Origin: a virus
Reading direction: 5' to 3' (one strand)
DNA: 27,928 nt
Virus record (IMG/VR): IMGVR_UViG_3300042564_002600
Span: 1 to 27,928 of that record
This document shows, piece after piece, positions 1,436 through 20,123 of the stretch. The position numbers and the translations under genes are program-made. Within the stretch, counting starts at the first letter, position 1. Every line of letters begins with the position of its first letter. The notes beneath the pieces were generated by a model. The model was not told the origin of the DNA. It ran no database searches and was given only the letters and a program-made list of their open reading frames with translations.

Positions 1436-1478
1436 TGTCAATAACTGGGATTACATAAAAAAAGTTGTTTTATTTTTG
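1436..1478 (+). promoter_or_regulatory. Promoter A: TGTCAATAA element and TATTTTTG -7 box, no ORF downstream
   Basis: TGTCAATAAC at 1436-1445 lies 35 bases (start to start) 5' of TATTTTTG at 1471-1478, which fits the Bacteroidota -7 consensus TAnnTTTG. The same pairing and spacing recur at four other places in the window. By analogy with the leaderless sites, transcription should begin near A1483, at the 5' edge of the structured RNA. A reverse-complement copy of the element (TTATTGACA, 1409-1417) lies just upstream, making an inverted repeat. Confidence 0.65.
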
Positions 1479-1482
1479 TTTT

Positions 1483-1581
1483 ACAATACCAATAAGATAC
1501 TCCGAATATTATATTGGACTTTGTTAAGCCATAAATTTCGGCATAACAGAACCCTATTAATTCGGAGTTAATAGGGTTTTT
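1483..1581 (+). ncRNA. Candidate ~99-nt structured small RNA with kissing loops
   Basis: Three hairpins lie between promoter A and a run of five T. Hairpin 1 pairs CCAATA (1489-1494) with TATTGG (1512-1517). Hairpin 2 pairs TGTTAAGCC (1522-1530) with GGCATAACA (1540-1548) with one A-A mismatch. Hairpin 3 is a perfect 11-bp intrinsic terminator stem (1550-1560 with 1568-1578). The whole seven-base terminator loop TTCGGAG (1561-1567) is the exact reverse complement of CTCCGAA (1500-1506) in the loop of hairpin 1, so a seven-base-pair kissing interaction can form. There is no ORF. The ends are inferred from the promoter and terminator. Function is unknown: a trans-acting sRNA, protein-sequestering RNA or an RNA active in packaging are all possible. 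Confidence 0.65.
1550..1581 (+). terminator. Intrinsic terminator of the small RNA
   Basis: AACCCTATTAA (1550-1560) pairs without mismatch with TTAATAGGGTT (1568-1578), leaving a seven-base loop. The stem runs into TTTTT at 1577-1581. It is a textbook Rho-independent terminator apart from being AT-rich at the loop end. Confidence 0.75.
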
Positions 1582-1589
1582 CATTTTAG

Positions 1590-2010
1590 AAATGTTACCC
1601 CTGCAAAAGTGCTAAAAAACTTCTAAGATTATTGTTTTGTTATGCAGTAGAACTGACTGGCAACCGACAAGCCATCCTGTTAAGCAGGCACAGCGCATGG
1701 AGATAATATCAAGGGGGCTGTAAATTGAATTGGTGGAGCTTGTACCGCATAGGTGCATGGTGGGAATACGATAACACCCACGTAAAATAAAAACAACGAA
1801 GACCTTTTTTAAGGCAAACAGTTTTATTTTGACTTCAAATGACTACCCGATAGGCGAATAGTATTAGGCTGAGGGGTCTCAACCAGTGATGCGGTTCAAA
1901 TAGAACAGGCTGACTGTACAACGGTAACGTGATGTAAGACAAAAAGCATTATTCATAGTCATATGTTTAATTAAATTTCTATGGTTTCAGATACTTAAAA
2001 CCATAGGGTG
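1590..2010 (+). ncRNA. Hairpin-dense non-coding stretch, possible second structured RNA
   Basis: No plausible gene lies here. Bases 1621-1920 are about 42% G+C by hand count, clearly above the surrounding intergenic DNA. Many short helices can be drawn: TGGC...GCCA around 1658-1674, CCTG...CAGG at 1676-1688, ACAGC...GCTGT around 1690-1722, GTACC...GGTGC near 1742-1756, GTGGG...CCCAC near 1760-1781, and a ten-pair helix joining AAAATAAAA(A)C to GTTTTATTTT around a CCTT/AAGG hairpin. There is also a GTAA-tetraloop hairpin near 1916-1937. A perfect nine-pair hairpin (1979-1987 with 1998-2006) and a T-rich tract close the region. No separate promoter was found, so it may be read-through from promoter A. 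The overall fold is unproven. Confidence 0.4.
1979..2006 (+). terminator. Perfect 9-bp hairpin before T-rich tract, possible terminator
   Basis: CTATGGTTT (1979-1987) pairs perfectly with AAACCATAG (1998-2006) around a ten-base loop. T-rich DNA (2020-2041) follows, but about 13 bases downstream rather than immediately, so termination activity is uncertain. It marks the 3' edge of the structured region. Confidence 0.4.
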
Positions 2011-2104
2011 TTAGATATTATTTTTTTTTATTCTTTTTTTTTCATGCAATTGAATTGTTAGAAATGCAACAACATAAAAAATAAATGCGTGAAAGAAAAT
2101 TGGT

Positions 2105-2147
2105 TGTCAGTAACTAAGATAAGATTAAAATAACTATTTTATATTTG
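2105..2147 (+). promoter_or_regulatory. Promoter B for the antirepressor, predicted leaderless
   Basis: TGTCAGTAAC (2105-2114) is 35 bases 5' of TATATTTG (2140-2147), a perfect TAnnTTTG -7 box. The antirepressor ATG (2152) follows after only four bases. Bacteroidota transcripts usually start several bases past this box, so the mRNA should begin at or next to the start codon. No TTG is present at the normal -33 position. Confidence 0.65.
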
Positions 2148-2151
2148 CAGT

Positions 2152-2874
2152 ATGAATGATTTAATTAAAGTAACAATAAACGAAAAAGGTCAACAGTTAG
2201 TAAGTGCAAAGGAATTGTATTTAAGTCTAGGATTTGATAAAAGTAACTGGGCATCATGGAGTAAAAAAAATATTATTGATAATCCATTTAGCATAGAAAA
2301 TGAAGATTGGGTAGGGTTCGTAGTAAGTAAGAACGGTAACCTTACTAAAGAATTTGCTTTAACTATCGAATTTGCTAAAAGAGTATCAATGATGGCAAGA
2401 ACAGAAAAAGGAGAAGAACTTAGAAAATATTTTATCGAGTGTGAAAATAAATTAATACAGCAAAAGCCAGAATTACCACAAATACCTCAAACATACGCAC
2501 AGGCACTTAGATTAGCAGCAGATCAACAGGAAGTAATAGAACAACAAGCAAAACAATTAGAGTTTCAAGCACCTGCAGTTGAATTTGCATACTCTATTAA
2601 AAAATCTGTTAATTCAATAGAAATTGAAGACTTTGCAAAAATTATAGGAGAAAAAAAATTAGGTAGGAATAATATGTTTAAACTATTCAGATTGCATGGA
2701 ATTTTAAATAAAGATAATACCCCAAATCAATATTATATCAATAATAAAACAATGGAATTAGACCCAAGAGTAAGAATACACAATGGTAAAAATCTAATTT
2801 ATAATGTTACCATGGTTACTGCAAAAGGTATTATTTATTTTCAGGACTATTTAAAGAAAAAAGGTTTTATTTAA
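2152..2874 (+). CDS. Phage antirepressor, AntA/AntB N-terminus and KilAC C-terminus, 240 aa
   Basis: Residues 1-100 match the AntA/AntB-type antirepressor domain: VSAKELYLSLGFDKSNWASW near the start, an LTIEFAKRVSMMARTEKG core, then ELRKYFIECE. Residues 105-140 are a helical linker (LAADQQEVIEQQAKQLEFQAPAVEFA). Residues 140-240 match KilAC, with IEIEDFAKIIGEKKLGRNNMFK, then a winged-helix-like region and VTAKGIIYFQDYLKK. Such proteins bind DNA or repressor and switch phage gene expression. The gene stands alone, flanked by the structured-RNA region and a decayed relic of a related gene. The start at 2152 is four bases past a perfect -7 box, so leaderless translation is likely. Confidence 0.88.
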   Translation: MNDLIKVTINEKGQQLVSAKELYLSLGFDKSNWASWSKKNIIDNPFSIENEDWVGFVVSKNGNLTKEFALTIEFAKRVSMMARTEKGEELRKYFIECENKLIQQKPELPQIPQTYAQALRLAADQQEVIEQQAKQLEFQAPAVEFAYSIKKSVNSIEIEDFAKIIGEKKLGRNNMFKLFRLHGILNKDNTPNQYYINNKTMELDPRVRIHNGKNLIYNVTMVTAKGIIYFQDYLKKKGFI

Positions 2875-2891
2875 AATATAAAACTCAACCG

Positions 2892-2917
2892 TTGCAATTT
2901 TGCAAACCTTTTTAATA
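2892..2917 (+). terminator. Weak terminator after the antirepressor
   Basis: GTTGCA and TGCAAAC can pair with a single bulged A and are followed by CTTTTTAA. The stem is short and imperfect, so this is a modest candidate for the 3' end of the antirepressor mRNA. Confidence 0.35.
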
Positions 2918-2920
2918 TAA

Positions 2921-3040
2921 TATGGATTTTCAGAAAATTTAGACTTTATTCAAATTTCTGAAGAAAGTACTGGTGGTAGACCAAGTATAGATTACAGGTG
3001 TAAACAAATTAACACTTGTATTATAACAAGGTTAAGATAA
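2921..3040 (+). pseudogene. Relic of a second AntA-type antirepressor
   Basis: One frame here reads YGFSENLDFIQISEESTGGR followed by PSIDY. This is the conserved core of AntA-type phage antirepressors (…F.EN.DF…S…STGGRPS.DY…). A TAA at 2918-2920 cuts it off upstream, there is no start codon, and after DY the reading turns into unrelated sequence before a stop at 3038-3040. The fragment therefore covers about 25 recognisable codons. It differs from the corresponding part of the intact antirepressor, which reads FSIENEDWVGFVVSKNGNLTK, so it comes from another lineage, not a recent duplication. It may have been left by recombination or gene replacement. Confidence 0.65.
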
Positions 3041-3125
3041 ATGTTAAAAGCCTGAAAATCAATAATTTATAAAAACGCTTTAAAACCTTTTTACGACAAT
3101 TCAAATTTGCGTTCCTTAAAATAAA

Positions 3126-3168
3126 TGTCAATAACCAATAAGCAATAATAAGAATTAGTTTACTTTTG
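3126..3168 (+). promoter_or_regulatory. Promoter C for the 64-aa protein, predicted leaderless
   Basis: TGTCAATAAC (3126-3135) lies 35 bases 5' of TACTTTTG (3161-3168), a perfect TAnnTTTG box. The ATG (3173) follows after four bases, exactly as at promoter B. The AAATAAATGTCAATAAC context is the same as at promoter A. Confidence 0.7.
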
Positions 3169-3172
3169 TTGC

Positions 3173-3367
3173 ATGAAAGATTTACTAAAAAACTTTAATG
3201 TAGCAAAGCTGGTTAGGGAACATGATATTAAAGTTGCAGCTTTAGCCCATAAACTAAGAGGCACTGATGCACGAAATAGAAAAGTATATTTCACAGACAC
3301 AGACAAAGAACAGTTTGCAGCGGCAATAAATAAAATATGTGCAGCCGTTGCAAATGAATTAACATAA
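3173..3367 (+). CDS. Small protein of the regulatory region, possibly HTH, 64 aa
   Basis: The product is short, mostly helical and basic in the first half. The stretch VAKLVREHDIKVAALAHKLR resembles the first helices of an XRE-type helix-turn-helix found in Bacteroidota phage regulators, but the domain would be incomplete and the call is weak. It is a single-gene unit with its own promoter (C) and a strong terminator, placed between the antirepressor and the early operon where Cro- or repressor-type genes are often found. A DNA-binding role is inferred mainly from this position. Confidence 0.55.
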   Translation: MKDLLKNFNVAKLVREHDIKVAALAHKLRGTDARNRKVYFTDTDKEQFAAAINKICAAVANELT

Positions 3368-3400
3368 CATTGAAATACCCTTGAAATCCCTAAAACAAAT

Positions 3401-3432
3401 CCCCCTCTTATCTTTATTTGAGGGGCTTTTTT
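3401..3432 (+). terminator. Intrinsic terminator
   Basis: CCCCTC (3402-3407) pairs with GAGGGG (3420-3425) around a 12-base loop and is followed by C and six T (3427-3432). It ends the one-gene unit that starts at promoter C. Confidence 0.85.
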
Positions 3433-3537
3433 ATGCCCATATTAAAGAAAATCTTAATATATTAAATAAAATTATAATATAGGAAACTCAATCACAGTAA
3501 GGCTTTCATAGGTATTTGAAAAAAAGTTTAAAAAAAG

Positions 3538-3580
3538 TTTGACAAAAGTATTGTCGATAAGTTTAATCTTATTATGTTTG
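3538..3580 (+). promoter_or_regulatory. Probable early promoter with two dyads
   Basis: TTG (3551-3553) is separated by 19 bases from TATGTTTG (3573-3580), matching the standard Bacteroidota -33/-7 layout. Two dyads overlap it: GACAA-5-TTGTC (3541-3555) and ATAAG-6-CTTAT (3557-3572), the latter filling the spacer. They are reasonable operator candidates for a repressor. It is the only canonical promoter seen upstream of the early operon. Confidence 0.55.
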
Positions 3581-3830
3581 CATTAGTTATTTGAACGACA
3601 CACACAGACAATAAACCCAAAAACGTTGTAAAACGGTAATATAAGTTTAAGACCAAAATGTATGTTGAAACACAGTTAAGCCACAAATGTAAAAGGGAAT
3701 ATACATTCAATGCAAGGCGATAAACTTTAATAGGACAGGTAATATAATAGTTACGATAATGCGGTTGGGCGATTTAGGACTAAATGCAACATGATAACCA
3801 AATGGGCATCCTAATAGTACCAAAATTCTA

Positions 3831-3854
3831 CAATGATAACACTTAGCGAAACAT
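3831..3854 (+). repeat. 24-bp direct repeat, copy 1
   Basis: This copy and the one at 3874-3897 are identical at 23 of 24 positions. The single difference (T3844 versus A3887) would be synonymous (CTT/CTA, Leu) if the ATG in the repeat is translated. Confidence 0.8.
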
Positions 3855-3873
3855 TAACGCAAGGGTAAATCCT

Positions 3874-3897
3874 CAATGATAACACTAAGCGAAACAT
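3874..3897 (+). repeat. 24-bp direct repeat, copy 2
   Basis: Second copy of the repeat at 3831-3854, 43 bases downstream, with one substitution. It is part of a wider 42-43 base periodicity of ATGATAAC motifs. Confidence 0.8.
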
Positions 3898-4022
3898 GAA
3901 AGCACAGAATATGATTATATGATGGTCAAGAAATGGCAATCCTTAATTGGAAGTTTCTTATAACAATAATTTAATGAGTGCAGCAGGCTGCCCCAATGTT
4001 CAAGTCATTGCTCATTAGCTAT

Positions 4023-4055
4023 TCATTTTAAAAACAAAAAACAAAAAACATGAAA
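4023..4055 (+). repeat. 33-bp perfect direct repeat around a start codon, copy 1
   Basis: Identical to 4257-4289. It comprises TCATTTT, an A-rich tract interrupted by C every seventh base, and ATGAAA. It is the translation leader of the gene at 4050. Bacteroidota ribosomes favour A-rich, SD-free leaders, and shortened versions of this leader precede the genes at 4704, 6512, 10895 and 12336. Confidence 0.85.
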
Positions 4056-4256
4056 GTATTAATCTTAACAAGTCAGTATGAATTTTCACATGGTAAAAGA
4101 CCATCAGGAGATGGATTTTGGTTTTTTAAAGTTATCAGTAACATTGATAACAATAAAGTAAAAGAAACAGTTATGCTTAACGGTAAGTATAGCGAATGTA
4201 TTAAAAAAATAAAAACAAATAATCCATTTTTAGTATCAATAAAAGTAATGCCTTAA
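4050..4256 (+). CDS. Unknown early protein, 68 aa
   Basis: First gene of the early operon. The short protein has predicted beta-strands (MKVLILTSQYEF, DGFWFFKVISNI, NPFLVSIKVMP) and no membrane segment. No family is recognised. The start is set by the A/C-rich leader directly 5' of the ATG, which is repeated exactly in front of the next gene. Confidence 0.6.
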   Translation: MKVLILTSQYEFSHGKRPSGDGFWFFKVISNIDNNKVKETVMLNGKYSECIKKIKTNNPFLVSIKVMP

Positions 4257-4289
4257 TCATTTTAAAAACAAAAAACAAAAAACATGAAA
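4257..4289 (+). repeat. 33-bp perfect direct repeat around a start codon, copy 2
   Basis: Identical to 4023-4055, including the ATGAAA start of the gene at 4284. Its A/C tract is also a 19-base perfect reverse complement of the T/G tract at 13563-13581. Confidence 0.85.
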
Positions 4290-4682
4290 CAAGAAATCTT
4301 AAATTCAATCTTAGAAATTTTTGAAAATCAAAAAACTGCTGTTAATAGCAGCCTAGGTTCAGTACTCACAAAAGATGATGTGATTAGTTTATTAGCAGCA
4401 ACTCACAGACAAGTGTTTGAAAGTATTAACGCTGCAAAAGCTCAAGAAGAAAAACATAACGAGTTATTTACTTTTGCTGATATAGAAAAAGCAATTGGAA
4501 AAGTTCTTGAATCAAATATAGATTCTGTTCATTATGTGGAAATACAAAATGATACAGCAGAATTTGAAATTAATTATAGCAATCATGTTGTATTAAATAC
4601 AGTAGATTTTGAGTTTGACGAGTATAATTTTAATAATGACTTCATTGAAGAATTAAGAAATGAAATGTTAATACCTTTATAA
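4284..4682 (+). CDS. Unknown early protein, 132 aa
   Basis: The N-terminal half (residues 1-80) is predicted helical, with TKDDVISLLAATHRQVFESI and FTFADIEKAIGKVLESNI. The C-terminal half is acidic and strand-rich (VHYVEIQNDTAEFEINYS, VDFEFDEYNFNNDFIEEL). No catalytic motif or family is recognised. It has the same leader as the preceding gene, so both are probably expressed at similar levels early in infection. Confidence 0.65.
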   Translation: MKQEILNSILEIFENQKTAVNSSLGSVLTKDDVISLLAATHRQVFESINAAKAQEEKHNELFTFADIEKAIGKVLESNIDSVHYVEIQNDTAEFEINYSNHVVLNTVDFEFDEYNFNNDFIEELRNEMLIPL

Positions 4683-4703
4683 ACTAATAAAAACAAAAAA
4701 AAC

Positions 4704-5138
4704 ATGAAAGCAGTAGAATATAAAATAACAAAACAAAAAGGAACAGGAATTGAAAGTGTAAAAGTAACAGGCAGCAAAGATGCCGAAACATTTGCACGTA
4801 ATTTTTATCAAGATGATATTGGCATTTATGAATCAATGTTCTTAATGCTATTAAACAGGGCAAATAAGATAACTGGCTGGGTAAAAATATCACAGGGCGG
4901 AGTAACAGGCACAGTTTGTGATCCTATTATAATTGCAAAGTATGCAATTGATAGCCTTGCAAAAGGTGTTATATTAGTGCATAACCATCCCAGCGGTAAC
5001 TTAATACCAAGTACTGCAGATAAAAATATTAATCAAAAAGTAAAGGCTGGTTTATCATTATTTGATATTACTTTGGTTGATAGTTTAATCATGACAGAGG
5101 AATCTTATTATTCATTTCAAGATGATTGCAACCTATGA
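4704..5138 (+). CDS. radC: RadC-like JAB/MPN domain protein, 144 aa
   Basis: The JAMM-type metal site is complete: E43, then HNHPSGNLIPSTAD at residues 93-106 (two His and the Asp). Upstream, DDIGIYESMFLMLLNRANKITGW and GTVCDPIIIAKYAIDSLAKGVILVHNHP follow the RadC domain closely. At 144 residues it has only the catalytic domain, without the N-terminal HhH part of chromosomal RadC, which is the usual form in mobile elements and phages of Bacteroidota. Its molecular role is not settled; a metal-dependent hydrolase in DNA processing is likely. It ends in an ATGA overlap with the next gene. Confidence 0.9.
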   Translation: MKAVEYKITKQKGTGIESVKVTGSKDAETFARNFYQDDIGIYESMFLMLLNRANKITGWVKISQGGVTGTVCDPIIIAKYAIDSLAKGVILVHNHPSGNLIPSTADKNINQKVKAGLSLFDITLVDSLIMTEESYYSFQDDCNL

Positions 5139-5359
5139 AAAAATACCACGTATTAAAAAAGAACAATCTAACCAAAATAATAGAGGATAATTTCAAAAGC
5201 GACTTCATTGATGTATGCCTTAAATATTACAGGGCATTAATAGACAGCGAAGTTAATAGTCAATATTTATCAACTAAAAAAGCTGATACAACTATTGAGA
5301 TAAGAGATACCAGCAAAGGGCTGAAAGATACCATTTATAAAATCACAATAAAAAACTAA
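5135..5359 (+). CDS. Unknown small protein, 74 aa
   Basis: The ATG at 5135 overlaps the radC-like stop (ATGA) and is preferred to the in-frame ATG at 5126. The product is basic, beginning MKKYHVLKKNNLTKIIEDNF, with a helical first half and a strand-rich second half ending in IYKITIKN. No family is recognised. Confidence 0.55.
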   Translation: MKKYHVLKKNNLTKIIEDNFKSDFIDVCLKYYRALIDSEVNSQYLSTKKADTTIEIRDTSKGLKDTIYKITIKN

Positions 5360-5363
5360 CATC

Positions 5364-5534
5364 ATGCAAAGTACATTAACACAAATACAAGTTACCGAAT
5401 TGCAAAATATGATTTATGAATCATTAATAAGCAACCCTGAATTTGGCTTAGGAGAAATGGGGGATTGCAGCGAAGAAGCTGAAAGGATAACAGATGAATG
5501 GATAGAGAATAACAATATTACAATCATAAACTAA
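5364..5534 (+). CDS. Unknown small acidic protein, 56 aa
   Basis: ATG CAA AGT at 5364 begins a 56-residue frame ending with TAA at 5532-5534. The sequence starts MQSTLTQIQVTELQNMIYES and ends ERITDEWIENNNITIIN. It fills the gap between its neighbours (four bases after the upstream stop, 11 before the next ATG), which supports it as a real gene. It is acidic and helical, with no recognisable motif. Confidence 0.55.
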   Translation: MQSTLTQIQVTELQNMIYESLISNPEFGLGEMGDCSEEAERITDEWIENNNITIIN

Positions 5535-5545
5535 AAACTAAAAAC

Positions 5546-5950
5546 ATGAAAAGAGTTTATCAATCAATTGCATTTATTTTATTTTTATTACTTGCTTGTC
5601 TTGCAGATAGTTTTGGACAAGTTAGTTACAAAGTAGTTCATAAAATATATGATTATTCAACACAACAATACAAAGTAGATTTTGATGTAGATAAAGAAAT
5701 CTATGTTGAATATGATAATTTAAAGTTTACATTTTATCAGCAACCAAATACTAACAGTATTCATATTCTTAAAAAATTGTCTTACGATGACAAACAGAAT
5801 ATACAAGTAACAACTTATGAAGCATATTGGAATTTAACAAATGAAAAGTGTTATTTCACAATAGGGACAGGTTCACTAATAACTTCATATACAATTTACT
5901 ATAATGATAATGGCATTAAAAAGTCATTGGCATTTTATTTTAGAAAATAA
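5546..5950 (+). CDS. Secreted protein of unknown function, 134 aa
   Basis: A clear signal peptide is present: MKR, a hydrophobic core FILFLLLACLA, then DSFGQ where signal peptidase I cleavage after G25 is typical for Bacteroidota. LLAC could alternatively act as a weak lipobox. The mature part (about 110 residues) is strand-rich and tyrosine-rich (YKVVHKIYDYSTQQYKVDFDV, TIYYNDNGIKKSLAFYFRK). It stands out as an exported product among cytosolic replication genes. Possible roles include altering the host envelope or excluding other phages; none is shown by sequence. Confidence 0.65.
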   Translation: MKRVYQSIAFILFLLLACLADSFGQVSYKVVHKIYDYSTQQYKVDFDVDKEIYVEYDNLKFTFYQQPNTNSIHILKKLSYDDKQNIQVTTYEAYWNLTNEKCYFTIGTGSLITSYTIYYNDNGIKKSLAFYFRK

Positions 5951-5963
5951 TAAAAAATACATC

Positions 5964-6137
5964 ATGAAACAGATAGTAAAAAAATGGGCAATTGAAAAAA
6001 TAAAAGAGCACCCACAACATAAAGAAGCAATTACAGATTTATGGAATTTATGTTTGAATGAAATAGATGAGGGAGGTTCTGAACCACATGAGTTCCAATT
6101 ATTTGAAAGCGAAGTAGAGCAATTAATAAAAAATTAA
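5964..6137 (+). CDS. Unknown small protein, 57 aa
   Basis: The start at 5964 (ATGAAACAG after an A-rich leader) avoids the 47-base overlap with the secreted-protein gene that an upstream in-frame ATG at 5904 would create. The sequence is helical (MKQIVKKWAIEKIKEHPQHK), with an acidic C-terminus. No family is recognised. Confidence 0.55.
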   Translation: MKQIVKKWAIEKIKEHPQHKEAITDLWNLCLNEIDEGGSEPHEFQLFESEVEQLIKN

Positions 6138-6139
6138 TC

Positions 6140-6403
6140 ATGACACAAAAAGAATTACAAGAAGCGGCAGAAAAAATTTATCCAAAACATAAAGGATTAA
6201 CAGCAACAGCAACAAATAAAATAATGCTTCGCAGAAATACATGGGTTAAAGGTGCTAAATGGATGCAAGGGAAAATATTTTCCAAAAAAGATATGATTGA
6301 TTTTGGAATATGGTTTTATTTAGAGATTAACCAAATATCATTTGAATCAAGAAGTAATGAAGAATTATTTGATGAATGGTACAACAAATTTAAAAAGCAA
6401 TGA
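6140..6403 (+). CDS. Unknown protein, 87 aa
   Basis: It starts two bases after the upstream stop. Residues 1-45 are basic and helical; residues 50-87 are aromatic and acidic (DFGIWFYLEINQ, ELFDEWYNKFKKQ). The pattern recalls small conserved proteins in Bacteroidota phage early regions, but no function is known to me. It ends in an ATGA overlap with a tiny membrane-protein frame. Confidence 0.6.
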   Translation: MTQKELQEAAEKIYPKHKGLTATATNKIMLRRNTWVKGAKWMQGKIFSKKDMIDFGIWFYLEINQISFESRSNEELFDEWYNKFKKQ

Positions 6404-6501
6404 CACGAAAAGAAAGGCAGCAGCTTAATAATAAGCACAAAGATTTAAAAGAATTATTTGCACTTGCAATAATTATAAGTATTTTAATTATCACACTTTA
6501 A
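6400..6501 (+). CDS. Tiny membrane protein, 33 aa
   Basis: ATG at 6400 overlaps the preceding TGA. The frame reads MTRKERQQLNNKHKDLKELF and then ALAIIISILIITL, which is a basic, cytosolic N-terminus and one C-terminal hydrophobic helix. Translational coupling and membrane-like composition make it plausible, though it is short. Confidence 0.4.
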   Translation: MTRKERQQLNNKHKDLKELFALAIIISILIITL

Positions 6502-6511
6502 AAACAAAAAC

Positions 6512-7150
6512 ATGAGTAAAATCACATTGGCTACAATACAAGCCAAAATCAAAGCACCGAAAGGGCAGTTTAATAAATTCGGCAATTACAAATACCGTTC
6601 AGCCGAAGATATTGTTGAAGCAGTTAAGCCAGTTATAAATGAGTTAGGTTATTACCTAATATTAACAGATTATGTAAAAATAGTTGGTGATAGAATTTAT
6701 ATTGAGGCAACAGCAACTTTATCAGATGGTGAAACCACATATCAAGCTACGGGATATGCAAGGGAGGAGGAAACAAAGAAAGGAATGGATAGTAGTCAGA
6801 TAACAGGAGCGGCAAGCAGCTATGCTCGTAAATATGCCCTTAATGGATTATTTGCAATTGATGATACAAAAGATAGTGATGCAACAAATACGCATGATGA
6901 CAAGCCTGTAAAAAAAGAACCTGCAAAAGAAGTAAAAGCCGAACCAGTAAAAGCTGAACCAGCAAATTATTCAGAAAGCAATTACAACGAAATAAAGGAC
7001 TTGCTTGAAAAGATTGTCACTATTGGTGAGTTGGTTACATTATATAACCAACACAAAGCAGAGATAGACAATGATGTCAAACTTCGCAAATCAATGACCG
7101 AAAGGAAACAATTTATATTAAGACAAATCGAACAAGAAGCTAAAAAATAA
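6512..7150 (+). CDS. erf: ERF-family single-strand annealing protein, 212 aa
   Basis: The N-terminal two thirds carry the ERF signature: a GNYKYRSAEDIVEAVKP motif near residues 24-40 and GAASSYARKYALNGLFAIDD near residues 99-118. ERF proteins anneal complementary single strands during phage recombination. A KEPAKEVKAEPVKAEPA linker (about residues 132-152) leads to a helical C-terminal domain of about 60 residues. The gene is followed at once by a YqaJ exonuclease and SSB, forming the usual exonuclease/annealing-protein pair. The leader TTTAAAAACAAAAAC precedes the ATG. Confidence 0.92.
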   Translation: MSKITLATIQAKIKAPKGQFNKFGNYKYRSAEDIVEAVKPVINELGYYLILTDYVKIVGDRIYIEATATLSDGETTYQATGYAREEETKKGMDSSQITGAASSYARKYALNGLFAIDDTKDSDATNTHDDKPVKKEPAKEVKAEPVKAEPANYSESNYNEIKDLLEKIVTIGELVTLYNQHKAEIDNDVKLRKSMTERKQFILRQIEQEAKK

Positions 7151-7155
7151 ACACC

Positions 7156-7842: not shown

Positions 7843-7847
7843 AAACT

Positions 7848-8255: not shown

Positions 8256-8268
8256 ATTTATTCACAAT

Positions 8269-8308: not shown

Positions 8309-8635
8309 ATGAAAAAAGAAATAATTGATGCAGTGTTAAAAGCTGTAGAATGGTACACTGGAATAAGTGTAGATGAAATAACAGGATCAAGCAGGCTTGC
8401 AAAGGATGGTCTTATTACAGCAAGGTTTCTTGCTTATGAAATATTACACAATACGTTTAAATTGAATTGGAAAGAAACAGCCAACGCTTTAAATAGGAGC
8501 AGCCATGCAACAGTTGTAAATGCCCTCAATACAATTAGAGAGGATAAGGAGTATTTTGAAAAGTTTAAAATTATTGCTAACAAAATAATTGCAAGAGTAT
8601 ATGAAACAAATGAAAATATTACTAAAATGGATTGA
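8309..8635 (+). CDS. Free-standing DnaA domain IV-like DNA-binding protein, 108 aa
   Basis: Residues 10-78 match the C-terminal DNA-binding domain of DnaA. GISVDEITGSSR corresponds to the first helix, ITARFLAYEILHNTFKLNWKETANALNR to the central helices, and RSSHATVVNALNTI to the DnaA signature normally reading RDHTTVLHA. The AAA+ ATPase of DnaA is absent. The protein could recognise DnaA-box-like sites in the phage origin, recruit the primase-helicase, or compete with host DnaA. It lies directly before the replication genes, overlapping the next one. Confidence 0.85.
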   Translation: MKKEIIDAVLKAVEWYTGISVDEITGSSRLAKDGLITARFLAYEILHNTFKLNWKETANALNRSSHATVVNALNTIREDKEYFEKFKIIANKIIARVYETNENITKMD

Positions 8636-13581: not shown

Positions 13582-13612
13582 AGAGCAGGGAGAAATCCTT
13601 GCTCTTTTTTTT
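13582..13612 (+). terminator. Strong intrinsic terminator of the replication operon
   Basis: AGAGCAGGG (13582-13590) pairs with CCTTGCTCT (13597-13605), including one G-T wobble, around a six-base loop and leads into eight T (13605-13612). The last T is also the first base of the next promoter's TGTCAATAA element. Confidence 0.88.
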
Positions 13613-13653
13613 GTCAATAAGTAAATATATTATAAAATAAATGAGTAGGTTTG
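13612..13653 (+). promoter_or_regulatory. Promoter D for the queD-to-terminase operon, predicted leaderless
   Basis: TGTCAATAAG (13612-13621) lies 34 bases 5' of TAGGTTTG (13646-13653), a perfect TAnnTTTG box. The queD ATG follows after four bases, as at promoters B and C. It is the only promoter seen before the overlapping gene series that runs to 20080, so modification and packaging genes probably share it. Confidence 0.7.
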
Positions 13654-13657
13654 TATT

Positions 13658-14047
13658 ATGATAATAGAAAAAAAATATCATTTCTACGCTGCACATAGGA
13701 ATAAAACAGCTGGAGAGAAGTGTGGCAGAATACATGGGCACACTTACGATGTTGTATGTCATTTTAAATTCAACACGTTAAAAGATGGTGTTACAATGCT
13801 ATTTAGTGATATTGATGCAATTGCAGAGCCTATAATAAAGAAATACGACCATACATTTTTACTGTGGGCAAATGATCCTTTAACGGAAGTTTTGCAACTA
13901 ATAAACGAACCTTTCACAGAATTGCCATTTGAAACAAGTGCAGAAAATATGGCAATATGGATATTTAAAGAAATAGAAAACGCAGGGCTTCCAATTATTA
14001 AAATAGAATTAGGAGAAACAAAAACATCAAAAGTTATTTATGAATAG
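13658..14047 (+). CDS. queD: 6-carboxy-5,6,7,8-tetrahydropterin synthase, 129 aa
   Basis: QueD makes 6-carboxytetrahydropterin from dihydroneopterin triphosphate, the second step of 7-deazaguanine synthesis. The zinc ligands are present as H13 (FYAAHR) and H26/H28 (RIHGHTYDV), with catalytic C22 four residues before H26. The D64-H65 pair (KKYDHTFLLW), SAENMA (95-100) and E120 (IELGETKTSKVIYE) complete the T-fold active site. Length is typical. It is the first gene of its operon and overlaps queE by eight bases. Confidence 0.92.
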   Translation: MIIEKKYHFYAAHRNKTAGEKCGRIHGHTYDVVCHFKFNTLKDGVTMLFSDIDAIAEPIIKKYDHTFLLWANDPLTEVLQLINEPFTELPFETSAENMAIWIFKEIENAGLPIIKIELGETKTSKVIYE

Positions 14048-14762
14048 ATTACCAGTAAGTGAAGTATTCACAAGCATACAAGGAGAGGGAGTGTCATCAG
14101 GATTACCAAGTATATTTTTAAGATTAGGTGGATGCAATTTAGAATGTGGAGGCAAAGGCACAATAAAAGACAAACAGTTGCACGATGGAGCAACGTGGCG
14201 GTGTGACAGTATAGAGGTATGGACTAAGTCTATATCAAAAAATATTGAAGATATATTTTCAAATGATGACATTTTTAATTTCAATAACGGTTACAGATTA
14301 GTTATTACAGGTGGAGAACCTTTAATACATCAAGAGGGAATAAAAGCATTAGTGAATCATTTAAACGCTATTTGTCATTCAAGACCTTTCATTGAGGTAG
14401 AAACTAACGGTACAATAATGCCCGATGTAGCTTTAAACTATGTAGACCAATGGAATGTTAGCCCAAAATTAAAAAACAGCGGTATGCCTGCTGATTTAAG
14501 AATTAACAAAAATGTCCTTGCACGTTTATCAATCTATTATAGTCAATTTAAGTTTGTTATTTCAAGCGAAGAAGATTTGCTGGAGGTAATAAATGATTTT
14601 AGCTTCTTATCTAAAACAAAAATAGTACTTATGCCGGCTGGAGAAAATCAAGAACAGCTATCAATAACAAGACCAATAGTTGCAGAGATTTGTAAAAAGT
14701 ACTCACTTAGAATGACAGACAGACTGCATATTACAATATGGAACCAAAAAACAGGAGTATGA
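14040..14762 (+). CDS. queE: 7-carboxy-7-deazaguanine synthase (radical SAM), 240 aa
   Basis: QueE converts 6-carboxytetrahydropterin to 7-carboxy-7-deazaguanine with S-adenosylmethionine and a 4Fe-4S cluster. The family hallmarks are VFTSIQGEGVSSGLPSIFLR at residues 9-28, TGGEPL at 90-95, FIEVETNGT and WNVSPKLKNSG. The cluster cysteines read C32-x3-C36-x18-C55 (CNLEC ... ATWRC), so the second gap is much longer than in the standard CxxxCxxC motif. Other insertions are known in QueE proteins (for example CX14CX2C), so activity is still likely. It overlaps queD and the next gene. Confidence 0.9.
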   Translation: MNRLPVSEVFTSIQGEGVSSGLPSIFLRLGGCNLECGGKGTIKDKQLHDGATWRCDSIEVWTKSISKNIEDIFSNDDIFNFNNGYRLVITGGEPLIHQEGIKALVNHLNAICHSRPFIEVETNGTIMPDVALNYVDQWNVSPKLKNSGMPADLRINKNVLARLSIYYSQFKFVISSEEDLLEVINDFSFLSKTKIVLMPAGENQEQLSITRPIVAEICKKYSLRMTDRLHITIWNQKTGV

Positions 14763-15307
14763 TAATGAAATATGAAATAAACAGCCCTGAATGGCACTTC
14801 CAACAAATATTATCTGAATTAGGTGAGCAACCACAAAGAGAGGGGCTAAAAGAAACTCCTAAAAGGTATATAAAATTCATGCGTGAATTCTTACAGCCAA
14901 AGGAATTCAATTTTACTACATTCGATGCAGAGGGTACAGATGAAATGATTATACAAAAGGATATACCCTTTTACTCATTGTGTGAGCACCATACAGCACC
15001 GTTTTTTGGCACAGCGGCAGTCGCTTATATACCTGATAAGAAAATTGTAGGCTTATCAAAACTTGCAAGAACAGTAGACCTTTACGCAAATAGATTCCAA
15101 AATCAAGAACGTATAACTACACAAATTGCAGAAAGATTAATGAATGAACTTAACCCTATCGGTGTTGCCGTATCATTGAAAGCGCAGCATTTATGTATGT
15201 GTATGAGAGGAGTAAAGAAACATGATACATGGACTATAACCAATAAACTCATGGGAGTATTCAAAGAAGGTAATGCAAGGCAAGAGTTTTTAAATTTTAT
15301 CAAATGA
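14759..15307 (+). CDS. folE: GTP cyclohydrolase I, 182 aa
   Basis: FolE opens GTP to dihydroneopterin triphosphate, the entry step for pterins and 7-deazaguanines. The family motifs are GLKETPKRYIKFMREF near residue 30, PFYSLCEHHTAPFFGTAAVAY (zinc Cys and His), GLSKLARTVDLYANRFQNQERITTQIAE and QHLCMCMRGV (second zinc Cys). ATG 14759 overlaps the queE stop (ATGA), while ATG 14765 gives MKYEINS and is also possible; an upstream in-frame ATG at 14738 would overlap queE more. Length matches type I enzymes. Confidence 0.93.
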   Translation: MIMKYEINSPEWHFQQILSELGEQPQREGLKETPKRYIKFMREFLQPKEFNFTTFDAEGTDEMIIQKDIPFYSLCEHHTAPFFGTAAVAYIPDKKIVGLSKLARTVDLYANRFQNQERITTQIAERLMNELNPIGVAVSLKAQHLCMCMRGVKKHDTWTITNKLMGVFKEGNARQEFLNFIK

Positions 15308-15573
15308 AAAACCACGTTAAAGTCTATTTAGAACATTTTGGCTATGATACAGAAAACCCATTCATACCATGTGAAATTTGCGGACAAAGAGCAGTAGATA
15401 TACATCATATACACGCAAGAGGTATGGGGGGAAGCAAAAAAAAAGATGATATTGAAAATCTTATGGCATTAGACAGAGAATGCCATATTCAATACGGAGA
15501 TATTAAAGAACTAATCCCTGAACTAATTAAAATACATCAAAAAAGATTAGATGAATATAAGCATAATAGTTAA
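15304..15573 (+). CDS. HNH-type nuclease, 89 aa
   Basis: The small beta-beta-alpha metal fold is recognisable: C23-x2-C26 (CEICG), D32-I-H34-H35 (AVDIHHIHARGMGGSKKKDD), N52 (IENLMALDREC) and C60-H61. It could be a homing-type nuclease, a packaging-associated HNH protein, or a nuclease acting on unmodified host DNA. Its place inside the modification operon, before a distant terminase pair, makes the last two worth considering. It starts in an ATGA overlap with folE and overlaps the next gene by 23 bases. Confidence 0.82.
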   Translation: MKNHVKVYLEHFGYDTENPFIPCEICGQRAVDIHHIHARGMGGSKKKDDIENLMALDRECHIQYGDIKELIPELIKIHQKRLDEYKHNS

Positions 15574-15868
15574 GTATCAGTTTGAAGCGTTACACAGATG
15601 GGAAAACTGTCCTTTTGATGAAGTTAAGTTTTTAAAACATCCTCACAGGCATTTATTTTATGTAGAAGCTGAAAAGGAAGTAACCCATGAAGATAGAGAC
15701 ATTGAAATAATAATGCTTAAACGTGAAATGGAAATGTTTTCAAAGTCAAAATACGACTACGGTAATATGAGTTGTGAAATGATTGCAATAATTTTATTAA
15801 ATGAATTTAATTTAAAAACCTGCACTGTGCTTGAAGATAATGAGAACGGTGCAAAAGTCTACAGATAA
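15551..15868 (+). CDS. Divergent QueD/PTPS-like T-fold protein, 105 aa
   Basis: Sequence order mirrors queD: YQFEALHRW (H15) matches FYAAHR, HPHRHLFYVEA (H30, H32, H34) matches IHGHTYDV, SCEMIAIILL (74-83) matches SAENMAIWIF, and TVLEDNENGAKVYR matches ELGETKTSKVIYE. The three zinc-ligand histidines are therefore plausible, but the catalytic Cys four residues before the HxH pair is absent (nearest is C20). It is shorter than QueD and probably has another activity on a pterin or deazaguanine intermediate, or a structural role. The homology is my reading and should be tested by profile search. Confidence 0.6.
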   Translation: MNISIIVKYQFEALHRWENCPFDEVKFLKHPHRHLFYVEAEKEVTHEDRDIEIIMLKREMEMFSKSKYDYGNMSCEMIAIILLNEFNLKTCTVLEDNENGAKVYR

Positions 15869-16947
15869 TGAGTAAACTAATTTATTTACCACTTGAAAGT
15901 TATAAAGAACGTTACACCTATTTTATGTCCTCTGTAAATGGATGGGCTGAAACCCACTTCAAAAATAATAACGTAGAATTTATTAGAATTGAGGGTAATG
16001 GAGGTACAGGTGAAATTAATACAGGCAGTGTGCTTGATGCCTTTGGTAGACCTTTATGGTCAATAAGTCAAATATCAAAAGTAATTGAACTTATAAAAGA
16101 CGGAACCATAACTAAGAACGATGTTATTTTTACAGAAGATTTTTGGCACTCAGGGATCGATTCTTTGTTCTATATAAGGGCAGTTGCAGGTATTGATTTT
16201 AAAATAGGTTGCTTCATCCATGCACAAAGTATAGATGAAAGTGATTTTACTTATCCTTTTAGAAACTGGATGAGACCAATAGAAATAGGTTATTCAAGGT
16301 CTTATGATTATGTATTTACTTGTTCTGAAATATTAAAACAGTATGCAGTACTTGCAGGTTATAATGAGCCAATAGTAACCGGTCTGCCTTTCAATAGTGT
16401 ACGTTTAAAAGAACAGCTTAAGGAAATAAATATAGATTTCAAAAAGCCAAAAAAACTGCAAGTATTATTTAGCAGTAGGTTCGATGCGGAAAAAAATCCA
16501 AACTTTTTCCTTGACTTAGTTGAAGCAATGAATGATATTGATTTTACTTTATGCAAGCCAAGAAAGCATTTATCAAACATAAAGGACATTGAGGACAGAG
16601 CAAGTAAGTTAAAAAACTTAAATATAGTAGATACATCAAATAAACAAGATTACTATAAGCTACTCCAAGAAAGTATGGTACAGTTCAATTGTGCAAACCA
16701 GGATTGGGTAAGCTGGACATTGCTTGAAGCTACTTTGTTTAACTGTGTGCCTATTTATCCTTATCACAAGGACTTTCCTTTGGAATTAGACTACAATAGT
16801 AAATATCTTTATAAGCATTTAGATTTAGAGGATGCAATTTATAAAACATATAAAGCATTAATTGACTTTGATAGCATCTATATCCCCAAGGTATATGAAA
16901 AGCATGACCAAAGCTGGAATAAACAACTTAAAATAATGGGACTATGA
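15868..16947 (+). CDS. Group 1-like GT-B glycosyltransferase, 359 aa
   Basis: The C-terminal half has the GT-B nucleotide-sugar fold: KKLQVLFSSRFDAEKNPNFF (residues 196-214), then YYKLLQESMVQFNCANQDWV and SWTLLEATLFNCVPIYPY (282-299), which matches the group 1/GT4 pattern ending in an E-x7-P site. The N-terminal half has a Rossmann-like acceptor domain (VIFTEDFWHSGIDSLFYIRA, IGCFIHAQ, YDYVFTCSE). It lies between the QueD-like gene and the DpdA-like gene, overlapping both by one to four bases. The acceptor is therefore plausibly the modified base in DNA. Sugar donor and acceptor are not shown by sequence. Confidence 0.75.
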   Translation: MSKLIYLPLESYKERYTYFMSSVNGWAETHFKNNNVEFIRIEGNGGTGEINTGSVLDAFGRPLWSISQISKVIELIKDGTITKNDVIFTEDFWHSGIDSLFYIRAVAGIDFKIGCFIHAQSIDESDFTYPFRNWMRPIEIGYSRSYDYVFTCSEILKQYAVLAGYNEPIVTGLPFNSVRLKEQLKEINIDFKKPKKLQVLFSSRFDAEKNPNFFLDLVEAMNDIDFTLCKPRKHLSNIKDIEDRASKLKNLNIVDTSNKQDYYKLLQESMVQFNCANQDWVSWTLLEATLFNCVPIYPYHKDFPLELDYNSKYLYKHLDLEDAIYKTYKALIDFDSIYIPKVYEKHDQSWNKQLKIMGL

Positions 16948-17771
16948 ATGTAGCTTTAGCAGGTACACCATCAGAGTATACTGATATTCTTTGTAATACA
17001 AATACAAAAATATCAGTACTTGTATCATACTGGTATCTTAAAGACCAACCAATTAAGTTAGGTCCTATATTAGATAAGTGTAAGGCTACTGATAAGAAAT
17101 TTTATCTTGATAGTGGAGTCTTTACAGCAAGAAAAAAAAACTTCGATATAAAACTTGAAGACCTTATAAAATTTTGCAGAATGTATGAGAATAGGATAGA
17201 CCATGTGTTTAACTTAGATATGGGCTCCTATGATACTCAACTAAATAACTGCAGACAGATGTTAAAAAATAATATACCATGTATTGGTATTATATCAAAT
17301 AAAATGTCTTTTGATGAGATAAAAAGATTTATTGACACTTCCCCTTATATTGGTCTTTCTTACATTAAAAATATACACATAGCAACAAAAGGTAACGACT
17401 ACGAGTATTACTTAGAAAATGTATTTGAGTATCTTTATAAAAATAACTATAAGGATGTAAAAACCCACGCATTAGGACTTACTAAGTATGATATGTTAAA
17501 AAAATTTCCATTTTATTCAGTTGATAGTAGCACATGGATTAATCCTTTTCGTTTTGGAGTAGCATTTAAGTTCGAAAATGGTCAATTTCATAGCTTTTCA
17601 CATAAAGAAAAGGGATCAACATTAAGAAATGGAGGAACAAACATAGCACTACAACATCATGCAATTAAAAGCAAGCACGATGTTATAAAACATAGCGCAC
17701 AAGCATTTTACGATATGCAAGAATTCTTAACTAAATTATGGACAAAAAGAGGAGTAATATGGGACAAATAA
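16944..17771 (+). CDS. dpdA: DpdA-like 7-deazaguanine DNA transglycosylase, 275 aa
   Basis: Phage DpdA proteins are relatives of tRNA-guanine transglycosylase that exchange guanine in DNA for a 7-deazaguanine base. Features seen here are FYLDSGVFTARK with D56, RIDHVFNLDMGSYD with D92, HALGLTKYDMLKKFPFYSVD (from H175) and DSSTWINPFRFG (D194), which fit the TIM-barrel TGT pattern of phage-type DpdA. The length is in the range of the short phage forms. Company with folE, queD and queE is the strongest support. Another TGT-like activity, on tRNA, is the main alternative. It overlaps the next gene by 13 bases. Confidence 0.75.
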   Translation: MNVALAGTPSEYTDILCNTNTKISVLVSYWYLKDQPIKLGPILDKCKATDKKFYLDSGVFTARKKNFDIKLEDLIKFCRMYENRIDHVFNLDMGSYDTQLNNCRQMLKNNIPCIGIISNKMSFDEIKRFIDTSPYIGLSYIKNIHIATKGNDYEYYLENVFEYLYKNNYKDVKTHALGLTKYDMLKKFPFYSVDSSTWINPFRFGVAFKFENGQFHSFSHKEKGSTLRNGGTNIALQHHAIKSKHDVIKHSAQAFYDMQEFLTKLWTKRGVIWDK

Positions 17772-18409
17772 AACATGGTTGGGTAGATGTACCCACAGAA
17801 AAATTAGTAAAAGCTGATTGGAACTACAAACTTGAAGATGAAGCCAAATCAGAAAAGTTAAAAGCCAACATCAAAAGAAACGGTCAGATAGAAAGTATCA
17901 TAATACGTGAACTACCTACCGGCTTCTATGAAGTAGTTAATGGTAACCACAGATACGATGTGCTTAACCAATTAGAAATAAATAGTATACATGCTTTCAA
18001 CCTGGGCATAATATCAGATAAAAAAGCCCAAAGAATAGCAATTGAAACAAATGAGACAAAATTCGCAACCGATACACTACAGTTAGCAGAATTACTACAT
18101 GAACTATCACAGGAATTTGATGACCTGTTGGAAACAATGCCCTACACAGAAGAACAACTAATGGACTTCGATAAAATGCTTGACCTTAAATGGGATGAGT
18201 TCAGCTCTAACTCCGGTAAAGCTAATGACCAAGATGAAACAAAAGACGGCTACCAAGAACTGAAAATATCAATACCCAATGAGACATTTAACGCATGGCT
18301 TAAGCTAAAAGAAAAAATGAAAGACCTAATGGGTATGGAATCAAATGAAAAAGTATTTGAGTTCGCAATAATTGAAGCACTCAATATCCCTGACCAAACA
18401 CTTAAATAA
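17759..18409 (+). CDS. ParB-like nuclease-domain protein, 216 aa
   Basis: ATG 17759 is preferred to 17738 because it shortens the overlap with dpdA. Residues 10-70 form the ParB/sulfiredoxin fold: VPTEKLVKADWNYK, LKANIKRNGQIESIIIRELP and the signature YEVVNGNHRYDVL (residues 57-69). The remainder is helical with an acidic linker near 145-160. Such proteins are common next to phage terminase genes and may act as DNA-binding or DNA-cleaving partners in packaging; chromosome partition is unlikely because no ParA is seen. It ends at the first base of terS. Confidence 0.82.
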   Translation: MGQIKHGWVDVPTEKLVKADWNYKLEDEAKSEKLKANIKRNGQIESIIIRELPTGFYEVVNGNHRYDVLNQLEINSIHAFNLGIISDKKAQRIAIETNETKFATDTLQLAELLHELSQEFDDLLETMPYTEEQLMDFDKMLDLKWDEFSSNSGKANDQDETKDGYQELKISIPNETFNAWLKLKEKMKDLMGMESNEKVFEFAIIEALNIPDQTLK

Positions 18410-18822
18410 TGTCAATAAGTAAAAGAAAAAGTCAACAATACCTTAATAAAGAAGCTATACTGATAAAAAAGCCCAAGAATGCTCGTAAAGAAGACTATTT
18501 CACATACGAACAATTAGAAAAAGCATTTAGGGCTGCATTAGGTATAAAAGCACAAGTAGCTAAAATACTCGGTTGCTCGTATAAGACAATAAACAACTAC
18601 GCAGTTAAATATCCTCAATTGGATGAGATAAGGGATGAGATGCTGCAGCAGATGCTTGATAATGCTGAACTTAAACTGCAAAAAAAGATTAGTGAAAATA
18701 ATTTGAGTGCGGTAATATTCTTCTTAAAGACAAAAGGCAAGAACAGAGGGTATACTGAAAGGATTGAAAATACAGGCAAAGAGGGCGGAGCAATTCAAAT
18801 CATAGATGAAACAAGTTATTAA
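18409..18822 (+). CDS. terS: Terminase small subunit, 137 aa
   Basis: A helix-turn-helix lies in residues 45-70 (FRAALGIKAQVAKILGCSYK, TINNYAVKYPQLDEIR). It is followed by an oligomerisation helix (MLQQMLDNAELKLQKKISEN) and the NLSAVIFFLKTKGKNRGYTER motif typical of phage small terminases. It recognises the packaging site and regulates the large subunit, whose gene overlaps its 3' end by 17 bases. The start codon context happens to read ATGTCAATAAGTAAA, which copies the promoter element found elsewhere. Confidence 0.82.
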   Translation: MSISKRKSQQYLNKEAILIKKPKNARKEDYFTYEQLEKAFRAALGIKAQVAKILGCSYKTINNYAVKYPQLDEIRDEMLQQMLDNAELKLQKKISENNLSAVIFFLKTKGKNRGYTERIENTGKEGGAIQIIDETSY

Positions 18823-20080
18823 ATTTCCAAAGTTACATGATGGGCAGTTAAAAATTATCATTGAGCGTAAAAGGTTCAATGTGATTGCTTGCGGGAGAAG
18901 ATTTGGGAAAACTAAATTGGCTCAAAGATTATTGCTATGGGAAAAAGACAGAAGTAACGGTGCTTTGTCCGGTCATCCTGTTGCATACATTGTACCGGCA
19001 TTTAGATACCTTGAAGAAGTTTACAGAGAGATTGTCGCTAATTATTTGCCTGTAATCACACACAAACACCAAGACAAAAGAATAGATTTTATAGGTGGGG
19101 GCTTCATAGAGTTTTGGTCAATGGAGAATTTTGACTCAATCAGAGGTAGGAAATATAAAAGGCTGGTAATGGATGAGGCAGCCATAAACGACACAGACTA
19201 TTTAAAAGAAGCATGGGAACAAGCATTCAGGGCATTGCTAATGGATTTAAAAGGGGATGCTTATTTCTTTAGTACACCAAAAGGCATAAAGCACTACTTT
19301 AAAGAATTGGCAGACCACTATAAGAAACTAAAATCATGGACATTCTTTCAAATGCCAACAACTACCAATCCATACATTGATCCTGCAGAAGTAGAAGAAG
19401 CAAGGCAGACACTTCCTCCAGTTGTATTTGCACAGGAGTATCTTGCAGACTTTACAGACATGAAAAGTGATAAGCTATTTATATTCGCATTTAATAAGCT
19501 AAAGCATGTACCAGCAGAGCCAATTGAATATGATAAGCGTTATCCAGTTATATTATCAGTTGACTTTAACGTATCGCCAATGACTGCTTTAATATGCCAG
19601 CATGATATTCATTATAGGTTTATAAAAGTTATTGACGAATATAGGCTGCTTAACAGTGATATCTATGAACTATGTGATAAGGTTAAGCAAGACTATGATA
19701 CACGAAAATTATTTGTCACAGGCGATGCAGCTGGATGGAGCCGTTCTGCAGCAACAAGAGGTCATAAGTCAATGTTTGACATTATACAGACACAGCTTAA
19801 TCTTAATTGGTCGCAAATAAAAACACCAAAAGGAAAGCCTAAAGGGTATGTAAGCGACAAAAGAAATCTTGCCAATGCTTTATTTAACAGACATAACAAC
19901 TTTCATATCAGCAGTAAATGCCCATACCTTGTGGAAGATTTACTCAATATTGAAGTAACAAGCACCGGACACATGGAGAAATCAGCAGACAGTACAAAGT
20001 CGCATCTGTTAGACTGCCTATGTGATTATTTATTTTCAATGTGTAAGGATGCAGTTAAAATGAATTTTATTAGCAAATAA
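18806..20080 (+). CDS. terL: Terminase large subunit, 424 aa
   Basis: The ATPase half shows Walker A ACGRRFGKT (residues 28-36), Walker B RLVMDEAA (119-126) and the coupling motif YFFSTPKG. The RNase H-like nuclease half has D253 (ILSVDFNVSP), D307 (VTGDAAGWSRS) and D403 (SHLLDCLCDY), the expected acidic triad. The enzyme powers DNA packaging and cuts concatemers. Length is normal. The gene that follows is not a portal, which is unusual. Confidence 0.95.
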   Translation: MKQVIKFPKLHDGQLKIIIERKRFNVIACGRRFGKTKLAQRLLLWEKDRSNGALSGHPVAYIVPAFRYLEEVYREIVANYLPVITHKHQDKRIDFIGGGFIEFWSMENFDSIRGRKYKRLVMDEAAINDTDYLKEAWEQAFRALLMDLKGDAYFFSTPKGIKHYFKELADHYKKLKSWTFFQMPTTTNPYIDPAEVEEARQTLPPVVFAQEYLADFTDMKSDKLFIFAFNKLKHVPAEPIEYDKRYPVILSVDFNVSPMTALICQHDIHYRFIKVIDEYRLLNSDIYELCDKVKQDYDTRKLFVTGDAAGWSRSAATRGHKSMFDIIQTQLNLNWSQIKTPKGKPKGYVSDKRNLANALFNRHNNFHISSKCPYLVEDLLNIEVTSTGHMEKSADSTKSHLLDCLCDYLFSMCKDAVKMNFISK

Positions 20081-20081
20081 T

Positions 20082-20123
20082 TGTCAATAAGTAAATAAAT
20101 GTTGTAATTGAGTTGTAATTTTA
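20082..20123 (+). promoter_or_regulatory. Promoter E downstream of terL
   Basis: TGTCAATAAG (20082-20091) lies 34 bases 5' of TAATTTTA (20116-20123), which matches TAnnTTTG except for the last base. The element and following AAGTAAATA are identical to promoter D. The GTG start of the next gene is 11 bases past the box, so here a short leader is expected. Confidence 0.5.

Follow-up and report, generated by a model that had tools for sequence, protein, structure and literature searches.

The 27,928-base linear IMG/VR virus record IMGVR_UViG_3300042564_002600, analyzed here as a 28-kb fragment and termed the window over its full length, was found to carry a recurrent 9-base element, TGTCARTAA, that starts 34 or 35 bases before TAnnTTTG boxes resembling the −7 element of Bacteroidota sigma-A promoters. 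These composites are very probably a real and phage-specific promoter module, based on their statistics, the presence of ATG codons at the predicted transcription starts, and the absence of the module, in this form, from hosts and other phages. Our tentative preference, held at somewhat less than an even chance, is that the module is of class II type, with the element bound by a DnaA domain IV protein of the phage itself (open reading frame [ORF] 8309-8632) to switch genes on. The timing of gene expression in Bacteroidota phages is poorly known, and, if this reading is true, sequence alone would have named a regulator together with its binding site and regulon.

The TGTCARTAA element and its composite promoters

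TGTCARTAA was present in 12 copies in the window compared to 1.1 expected, a count reached by none of 100 shuffles, and TGTCAATAA/TTATTGACA was the top-ranked over-represented 9-mer of the window by an order-4 Markov model (11 vs 1.5 expected). Seven of the 12 copies were intergenic, compared to the 10% of the window (2.85 kb) that is intergenic DNA (P 6e-5; simulation 0.14). Four of these formed a composite with TAnnTTTG at 34/35 bases, compared to none in 2000 simulations of intergenic DNA, and the reversed composite pattern had no match in the window. The probability of at least four of seven intergenic copies lying at 34/35 from a box by random placement was ~3e-9, and stayed <1e-6 when ~50 possible spacings were allowed. 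A sequence-only reading of this DNA had placed the element 35 bases before the box at 1436, 2105 and 3126 and 34 bases before it at 13612 and 20082, with 35 for elements that end in C and 34 for those that end in G; all five coordinates were correct and the spacing rule was obeyed at 5/5 sites, a sample of five only. That reading had named equal frequency inside and upstream of genes in the complete genome as a pattern that would speak against it; within the 28-kb fragment, the element was strongly intergenic.

Transcription starts were predicted at 12 bases after the start of the box, since the −7 element of Flavobacterium johnsoniae runs from T-12 through G-5 (PMC6847099). Relative to these starts, the element was found at −47 to −39 with its center at −43 or −42 at four sites, in agreement with the earlier proposal of a class II place; class II sites are fixed near −41.5 and adjoin the −35 region. 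At three composites the predicted +1 was the A of an ATG, such that the mRNAs for the antirepressor, a DUF5053-like protein and QueD are predicted to be leaderless. Leaderless transcripts account for 5.5% of F. psychrophilum mRNAs (PMC9723704), and an ATG 2-4 bases after TAnnTTTG was also frequent in relatives. The TAHHTTTG form of the −7 box was fit by three sites; TAGGTTTG at 13646 violates the 'no G' rule (PMC6847099), and the box at 20116 (TAATTTTA), already described as imperfect, fails TAHHTTTG. As claimed, no TTG was detected 19-25 bases upstream of the −7 boxes at the element sites, which is weak evidence since the −33 motif is barely visible even in F. johnsoniae (PMC6847099). Compared to Bacteroidota sigma-A promoters (TTTG / TAnnTTTG), the window promoters thus share a −7 TAnnTTTG that lies as far from the start as expected, and differ by the missing −33 TTG, the element near −43 and the leaderless starts. 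Composite promoter 4 was located directly 3' of the T-tract of a terminator-like hairpin (AGCAGGG...CCTTGCT). Coordinates of these and other features are listed in Table 1.

Table 1. Promoter elements, candidate regulator and associated genes of the window.
Feature	Position	Strand	Details
Composite promoter 1	1436..1478	+	TGTCAATAAC, 35 to TATTTTTG (1471); predicted +1 = 1483; short noncoding transcript downstream
Composite promoter 2	2105..2147	+	TGTCAGTAAC, 35 to TATATTTG (2140); predicted +1 = 2152, A of ATG
Composite promoter 3	3126..3168	+	TGTCAATAAC, 35 to TACTTTTG (3161); predicted +1 = 3173, A of ATG
Composite promoter 4	13612..13653	+	TGTCAATAAG, 34 to TAGGTTTG (13646); predicted +1 = 13658, A of ATG
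Weaker fifth site	20082..20123	+	TGTCAATAAG, 34 to poor box TAATTTTA; predicted +1 without ATG
Inverted element copy	1409..1417	-	with 1436-1444 makes TTATTGACA-N18-TGTCAATAA
Inverted element (TTATTGACA on +), 5' of tape-measure gene	22581..22619	+	31 bases before TATCTTTG (22612)
Variant element, promoter with ordinary −33/−7 spacing	3552..3580	+	TTGTCGATAA, its TTG ~22 bases before TATGTTTG (3573)
Exact canonical DnaA box	8258..8266	+	TTATTCACA; gap immediately 5' of DnaA-domain gene
Stand-alone DnaA domain IV protein, proposed element binder	8309..8635	+	108 aa; Pfam, AlphaFold, Foldseek
AntA/KilAC antirepressor gene	2152..2874	+	PF08346 1.1e-13, PF03374 4.5e-15, PHROG 63
DUF5053-like protein	3173..3367	+	64 aa; PF16476 E 2.3e-4, under cut-off
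QueD, QueE and GTP cyclohydrolase I genes	13658..15307	+	start of long operon reaching terminase
Putative ~100-nt noncoding RNA	1483..1585	+	ends in intrinsic terminator (stem 1548-1580); folding z −5.6, terminator scan

The 103-nt stretch that follows the 1436 promoter contains no gene and folds far better than shuffles; no Rfam family was matched by this putative RNA at the gathering threshold, and Rfam analysis of 1390-4060 detected no known RNA apart from a chance mir-454 match. Two long gene-free stretches were observed after short promoters (1600-2000 and 3585-4040), also with no Rfam match, and the noncoding stretches 1600-1960 and 3585-4020 folded no better than shuffles.

Across 296 Bacteroidota genomes, the composite occurred at chance level, with 13 matches compared to 15 for its reversed form. 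It was not seen at 34/35 bases in three host bins, and a host promoter class was therefore rejected. Among relatives of the primase (1.16 Mb), 30 elements were found with none near a box. When IMG/VR was searched for the composite, at least 120 stretches were matched; nearly all of those listed were chance matches in coding DNA, and the same composite in other phages was rejected, with L111, L121, L123 and L165 being the stretches among them that look promoter-like. A search of IMG/VR for the leaderless form returned 33 stretches that were mostly within long open frames and none like the window module; one recurrent sequence lay outside long frames, and was then followed by a frame of just 12 codons. 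Taken together, the chance-level host result and the lack of module-like leaderless matches argue for a phage-specific module and not a host promoter class.

A phage-encoded DnaA domain IV protein as candidate regulator

The earlier proposal that these promoters are driven by a regulator stands with regard to real promoters with a shared phage-specific element; the regulator itself is plausible, with ORF 8309-8632 as the candidate. This protein was singled out because the element resembles a DnaA box and a DnaA box-binding domain is encoded by the phage. On its complementary strand the element reads TTAYTGACA and may be regarded as a variant of the DnaA box TTATNCACA, with both ends (TTA, ACA) kept and with G at position 6 where the canonical box has C. 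ORF 8309-8632 matched Bac_DnaA_C (PF08299) with an E-value of 4.9e-8 and 33.3 bits, compared to a curated cut-off of 31.5, and was also assigned to DnaA domain IV by NCBIfam. Its AlphaFold model (pLDDT 89.7, pTM 0.84) retrieved only DnaA among the top 10 Foldseek matches, including 3pvp, 1j1v and DnaA-DNA complexes, with a TM-score of 0.71/0.80 to 1j1v_A. The protein is not a full-length DnaA: it consists of domain IV without the AAA+ domain III, and scored 30 of 410 bits against the NCBIfam DnaA equivalog, far under the cut-off. No close relatives of the protein were found in IMG/VR, and no significant PHROGs family was detected.

E. coli DnaA reads TTA by R399 in the minor groove and TnCACA by helix 434-451 (PMC5742627, PMC7561715), with D433 reported to be in contact with box position 7 (PMC8235120). 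By alignment, R399 (R29) and H434 (H66) are kept in ORF 8309-8632, while S433, A435 and N439 replace D433, T435 and H439, such that the canonical recognition set (R399, D433, H434, T435, H439) is incomplete. The window pair is thus like the DnaA box and domain IV in fold, in the R399/H434 equivalents and in an asymmetric 9-mer that begins with TTA and finishes with ACA, and differs in the lack of an AAA+ domain, the three replaced residues and a site center of TTG/CTG instead of TNC.

In the reading that we favor, TGTCARTAA-N25/26-TAnnTTTG would be a phage-specific module read by the host sigma-A holoenzyme. The 8309-8632 protein would bind TGTCAATAA/TGTCAGTAA and prefer TTATTGACA and TTACTGACA over TTATTAACA and TTATCCACA; this binding step is itself put at a little under even odds. 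Once bound, it would touch sigma region 4 or the alpha subunit and so replace the weak or absent −33 contact; given binding, activation at the class II position, as opposed to repression, is probable. The antirepressor, the DUF5053-like gene, the short RNA and the QueD-to-terminase operon would be switched on, mostly as leaderless mRNAs. A single factor would couple early decision genes with later genes, since the regulated genes include the antirepressor and the operon that leads toward terminase.

A precedent for DnaA-like proteins able to activate transcription is provided by GafA and GafY, activators with a fold like the DnaA DNA-binding domain that act on gene-transfer-agent promoters via omega or sigma-70 (PMC6363796, PMC9638019, PMC11150451). 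GafY of Caulobacter contacts RpoD (PMC11150451), and the N-terminal domain of GafA of Rhodobacter contacts the omega subunit (PMC9638019). The window protein has a predicted DnaA-like fold and may bind the phage promoters, and may be analogous as a small DnaA-domain-IV-like helix-turn-helix protein of a phage-like element that would recruit host RNA polymerase. By contrast, GafY binds at ~−120, needs IHF and has the partner GafZ, whereas the window site is at ~−43 and no IHF site or partner was identified in the window. GafA and GafY are also alphaproteobacterial and the window phage is of Bacteroidota, the likeness being that both are DnaA-like. If the favored reading is true, GafA and GafY would join the window protein in a broader group of phage activators derived from DnaA, and DnaA domain IV would have gained new specificities outside replication.

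Short fixed-position sites that replace the −35 element and are bound by a phage activator are characteristic of T4 middle promoters (MotA box), P2 Ogr and Mu C. Their likeness to the window module is limited to architecture; the proteins and positions are unrelated. The P2 Ogr-type site has the pattern TGT-N12-ACA, a spacing that does not fit the element. Direct reading of the element by a sigma factor was likewise rejected, as the 25-26 bases to the −7 box are beyond the shorter reach of sigma region 4.

DnaA domains and promoter elements in other Bacteroidota phages

Parallels to the window pair were found in jumbo phages of Bacteroidota. In a 254-kb phage (G017), TTATTAACA was the top 9-mer (41 vs 8.2), 15 copies were located exactly 48 bases before TAnnTTTG, and the gene for its DnaA domain IV (N433, G435) was itself under a TTATTAACA-type promoter. 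A second jumbo lineage (G350/G356) had 25 copies of TTATTAACA vs 4.2, 11 of which showed the 47/48-base spacing; its domain IV has N433 and A435. These two lineages and the window are all without D433 and have a small residue at 435, and box position 6 is G in the window and A in the jumbo phages, compared to C in the canonical box. It is less likely than not, in our estimate, that the DnaA DNA-binding domain became a family of dedicated activators in Bacteroidota phages, with re-programmed 9-mer boxes that each define a promoter class. The boxes of such a family would be TTAYTGACA near −43 here and TTATTAACA near −56 in the jumbo phages, added to host sigma-A, with promoters mostly leaderless here. 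The favored reading, if true, would provide a test case of protein-DNA co-evolution in which recognition-helix residues are compared to the box center.

Several observations weigh against the DnaA-domain protein as regulator. Of 48 records of related Bacteroidota phages, 14 had a stand-alone DnaA domain IV over the cut-off, which is thus common, and most of these relatives had no enriched DnaA-like intergenic 9-mer. The closest relatives (G001 and G021) have a syntenic DnaA domain, yet the recurrent promoter element of G001 is the palindrome CTAAATTANAATTTAG. In G354, TTATTAACA was the top 9-mer and no DnaA domain was found in 160 kb of a possibly incomplete record. The jumbo phages were met through a motif scan, so that the parallel is ascertained, and their element is at about −56 compared to −43 in the window. 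Since D433 is reported to contact position 7, which the element leaves as it is, the shift from C6 to G does not follow simply from the residue changes. Two intergenic copies of the element are inverted (1409-1417 and 22581-22589) and five are intragenic (1057, 1202, 17329, 18410 and 24446). A bound protein might also repress and not activate, and might have a further role in replication.

The records with a stand-alone domain IV include G003, G004, G007, G010-G013, G326, G339 and G342. No enriched element was found in the other phages, whose domains are closer to canonical or changed in other ways, and G019 (N433, A435) was without a clear one; a general rule that a phage DnaA domain implies DnaA-like promoter elements was rejected, as most such phages are without them. 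G001 and G021 were rejected as carriers of the same module: TGTCAATAA is present, but at 38 bases from the box and with a palindrome in between. In G001, TTTTGGCTAAATTAAAATTTAGTTGCAAATTTG / TTTTGCTAAATTAGAATTTAGTTTTATATTTG was also observed to be repeated (L223, 17870-17935 and 18510-18550), as a palindromic operator that separates the −33 TTTTG from the −7 region at two promoters. In the relative G024 (L329-L330, parent of L219), which is without a DnaA domain, TTTTGTCAAAAT was constantly 27 bases before TACATTTG/TACCTTTG (21167 and 31759). The jumbo-type promoters had the form TGTTAATAACTTT-N35-TATATTTG with 47-48 spacing in G017 (L303-L315), G350 (L488-L494), G354 (L495-L502) and G353 (L503-L505), and in some cases the element and the −7 box were separated by a terminator hairpin; at least 120 stretches were matched in the scan for this type, and several other contigs were similar with N37-N39.

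Alternative explanations and other features of the window

The same promoter module could be governed by another regulator, such as a phage repressor or activator encoded outside the fragment, a product of these promoters (the AntA/KilAC or DUF5053-like protein), or a host factor. This explanation, a serious though minority possibility, is consistent with the 28-kb size of the fragment, outside of which further regulators may lie, with two regulated genes that are regulator-like or small and uncharacterised, and with the operator-like nature of the G001 palindrome, which is of helix-turn-helix type. It leaves unaccounted for that a 9-mer whose ends match the DnaA box occurs on the same fragment as a gene for a domain that binds such boxes. 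A host factor is opposed by the chance-level occurrence of the composite in hosts, and the DUF5053-like protein by its low-confidence two-helix model without a solved relative.

We consider it improbable that the elements are variant DnaA boxes for a phage initiator, with an origin at ~0.8-3.6 kb and with promoter proximity secondary. Eight of 15 TGTCRRTAA sites were clustered within 2.8 kb (765-3560, P 0.002), T-rich tracts were found at 2020-2045, and the candidate protein corresponds to the part of an initiator that binds DNA, with its gene directly 5' of the primase/helicase gene. For an origin, however, neither the constant 34/35 distance to −7 boxes nor the ATG at +1 would be needed; the copies at 13612 and 20082 are distant, and no skew switch was seen in the window. 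By analogy with cellular DnaA, promoter and replication roles of the element may exist side by side.

Least probable, and only a slight chance in our judgment, are ordinary strong sigma-A promoters without a dedicated regulator, with TGTCARTAA as a UP-like A-rich sequence or a duplication: the 25 bases downstream of the element are A-rich and a longer sequence, TGTCAATAAGTAAA, is common to 13612, 18410 and 20082, but what is conserved is a specific 9-mer with G and C while the A-rich part is variable, the spacing is not above chance in hosts, and no such leaderless promoter was seen in other phages in the IMG/VR search.

The window has a GC content of 33% with almost all genes on the + strand, and encodes terminase, tape measure, Erf, SSB, YqaJ, primase/helicase, antirepressor and QueD/QueE/FolE proteins. 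Because of this gene set, a terminase with 59% identity to that of a phage relative, and a primase/helicase similar to Flavobacterium and Cellulophaga phage proteins and to proteins of Bacteroidota bins, the window is most likely part of a Bacteroidota phage of ~40 kb, like its relatives. A tRNA-Cys (GCA) gene was located in the late region (20735-20810). The region 13658-17771 contains the QueD, QueE and FolE genes and a gene for a 275-aa protein without a Pfam match, possibly a DpdA-like transglycosylase, and this combination suggests a putative 7-deazaguanine modification of the phage DNA.

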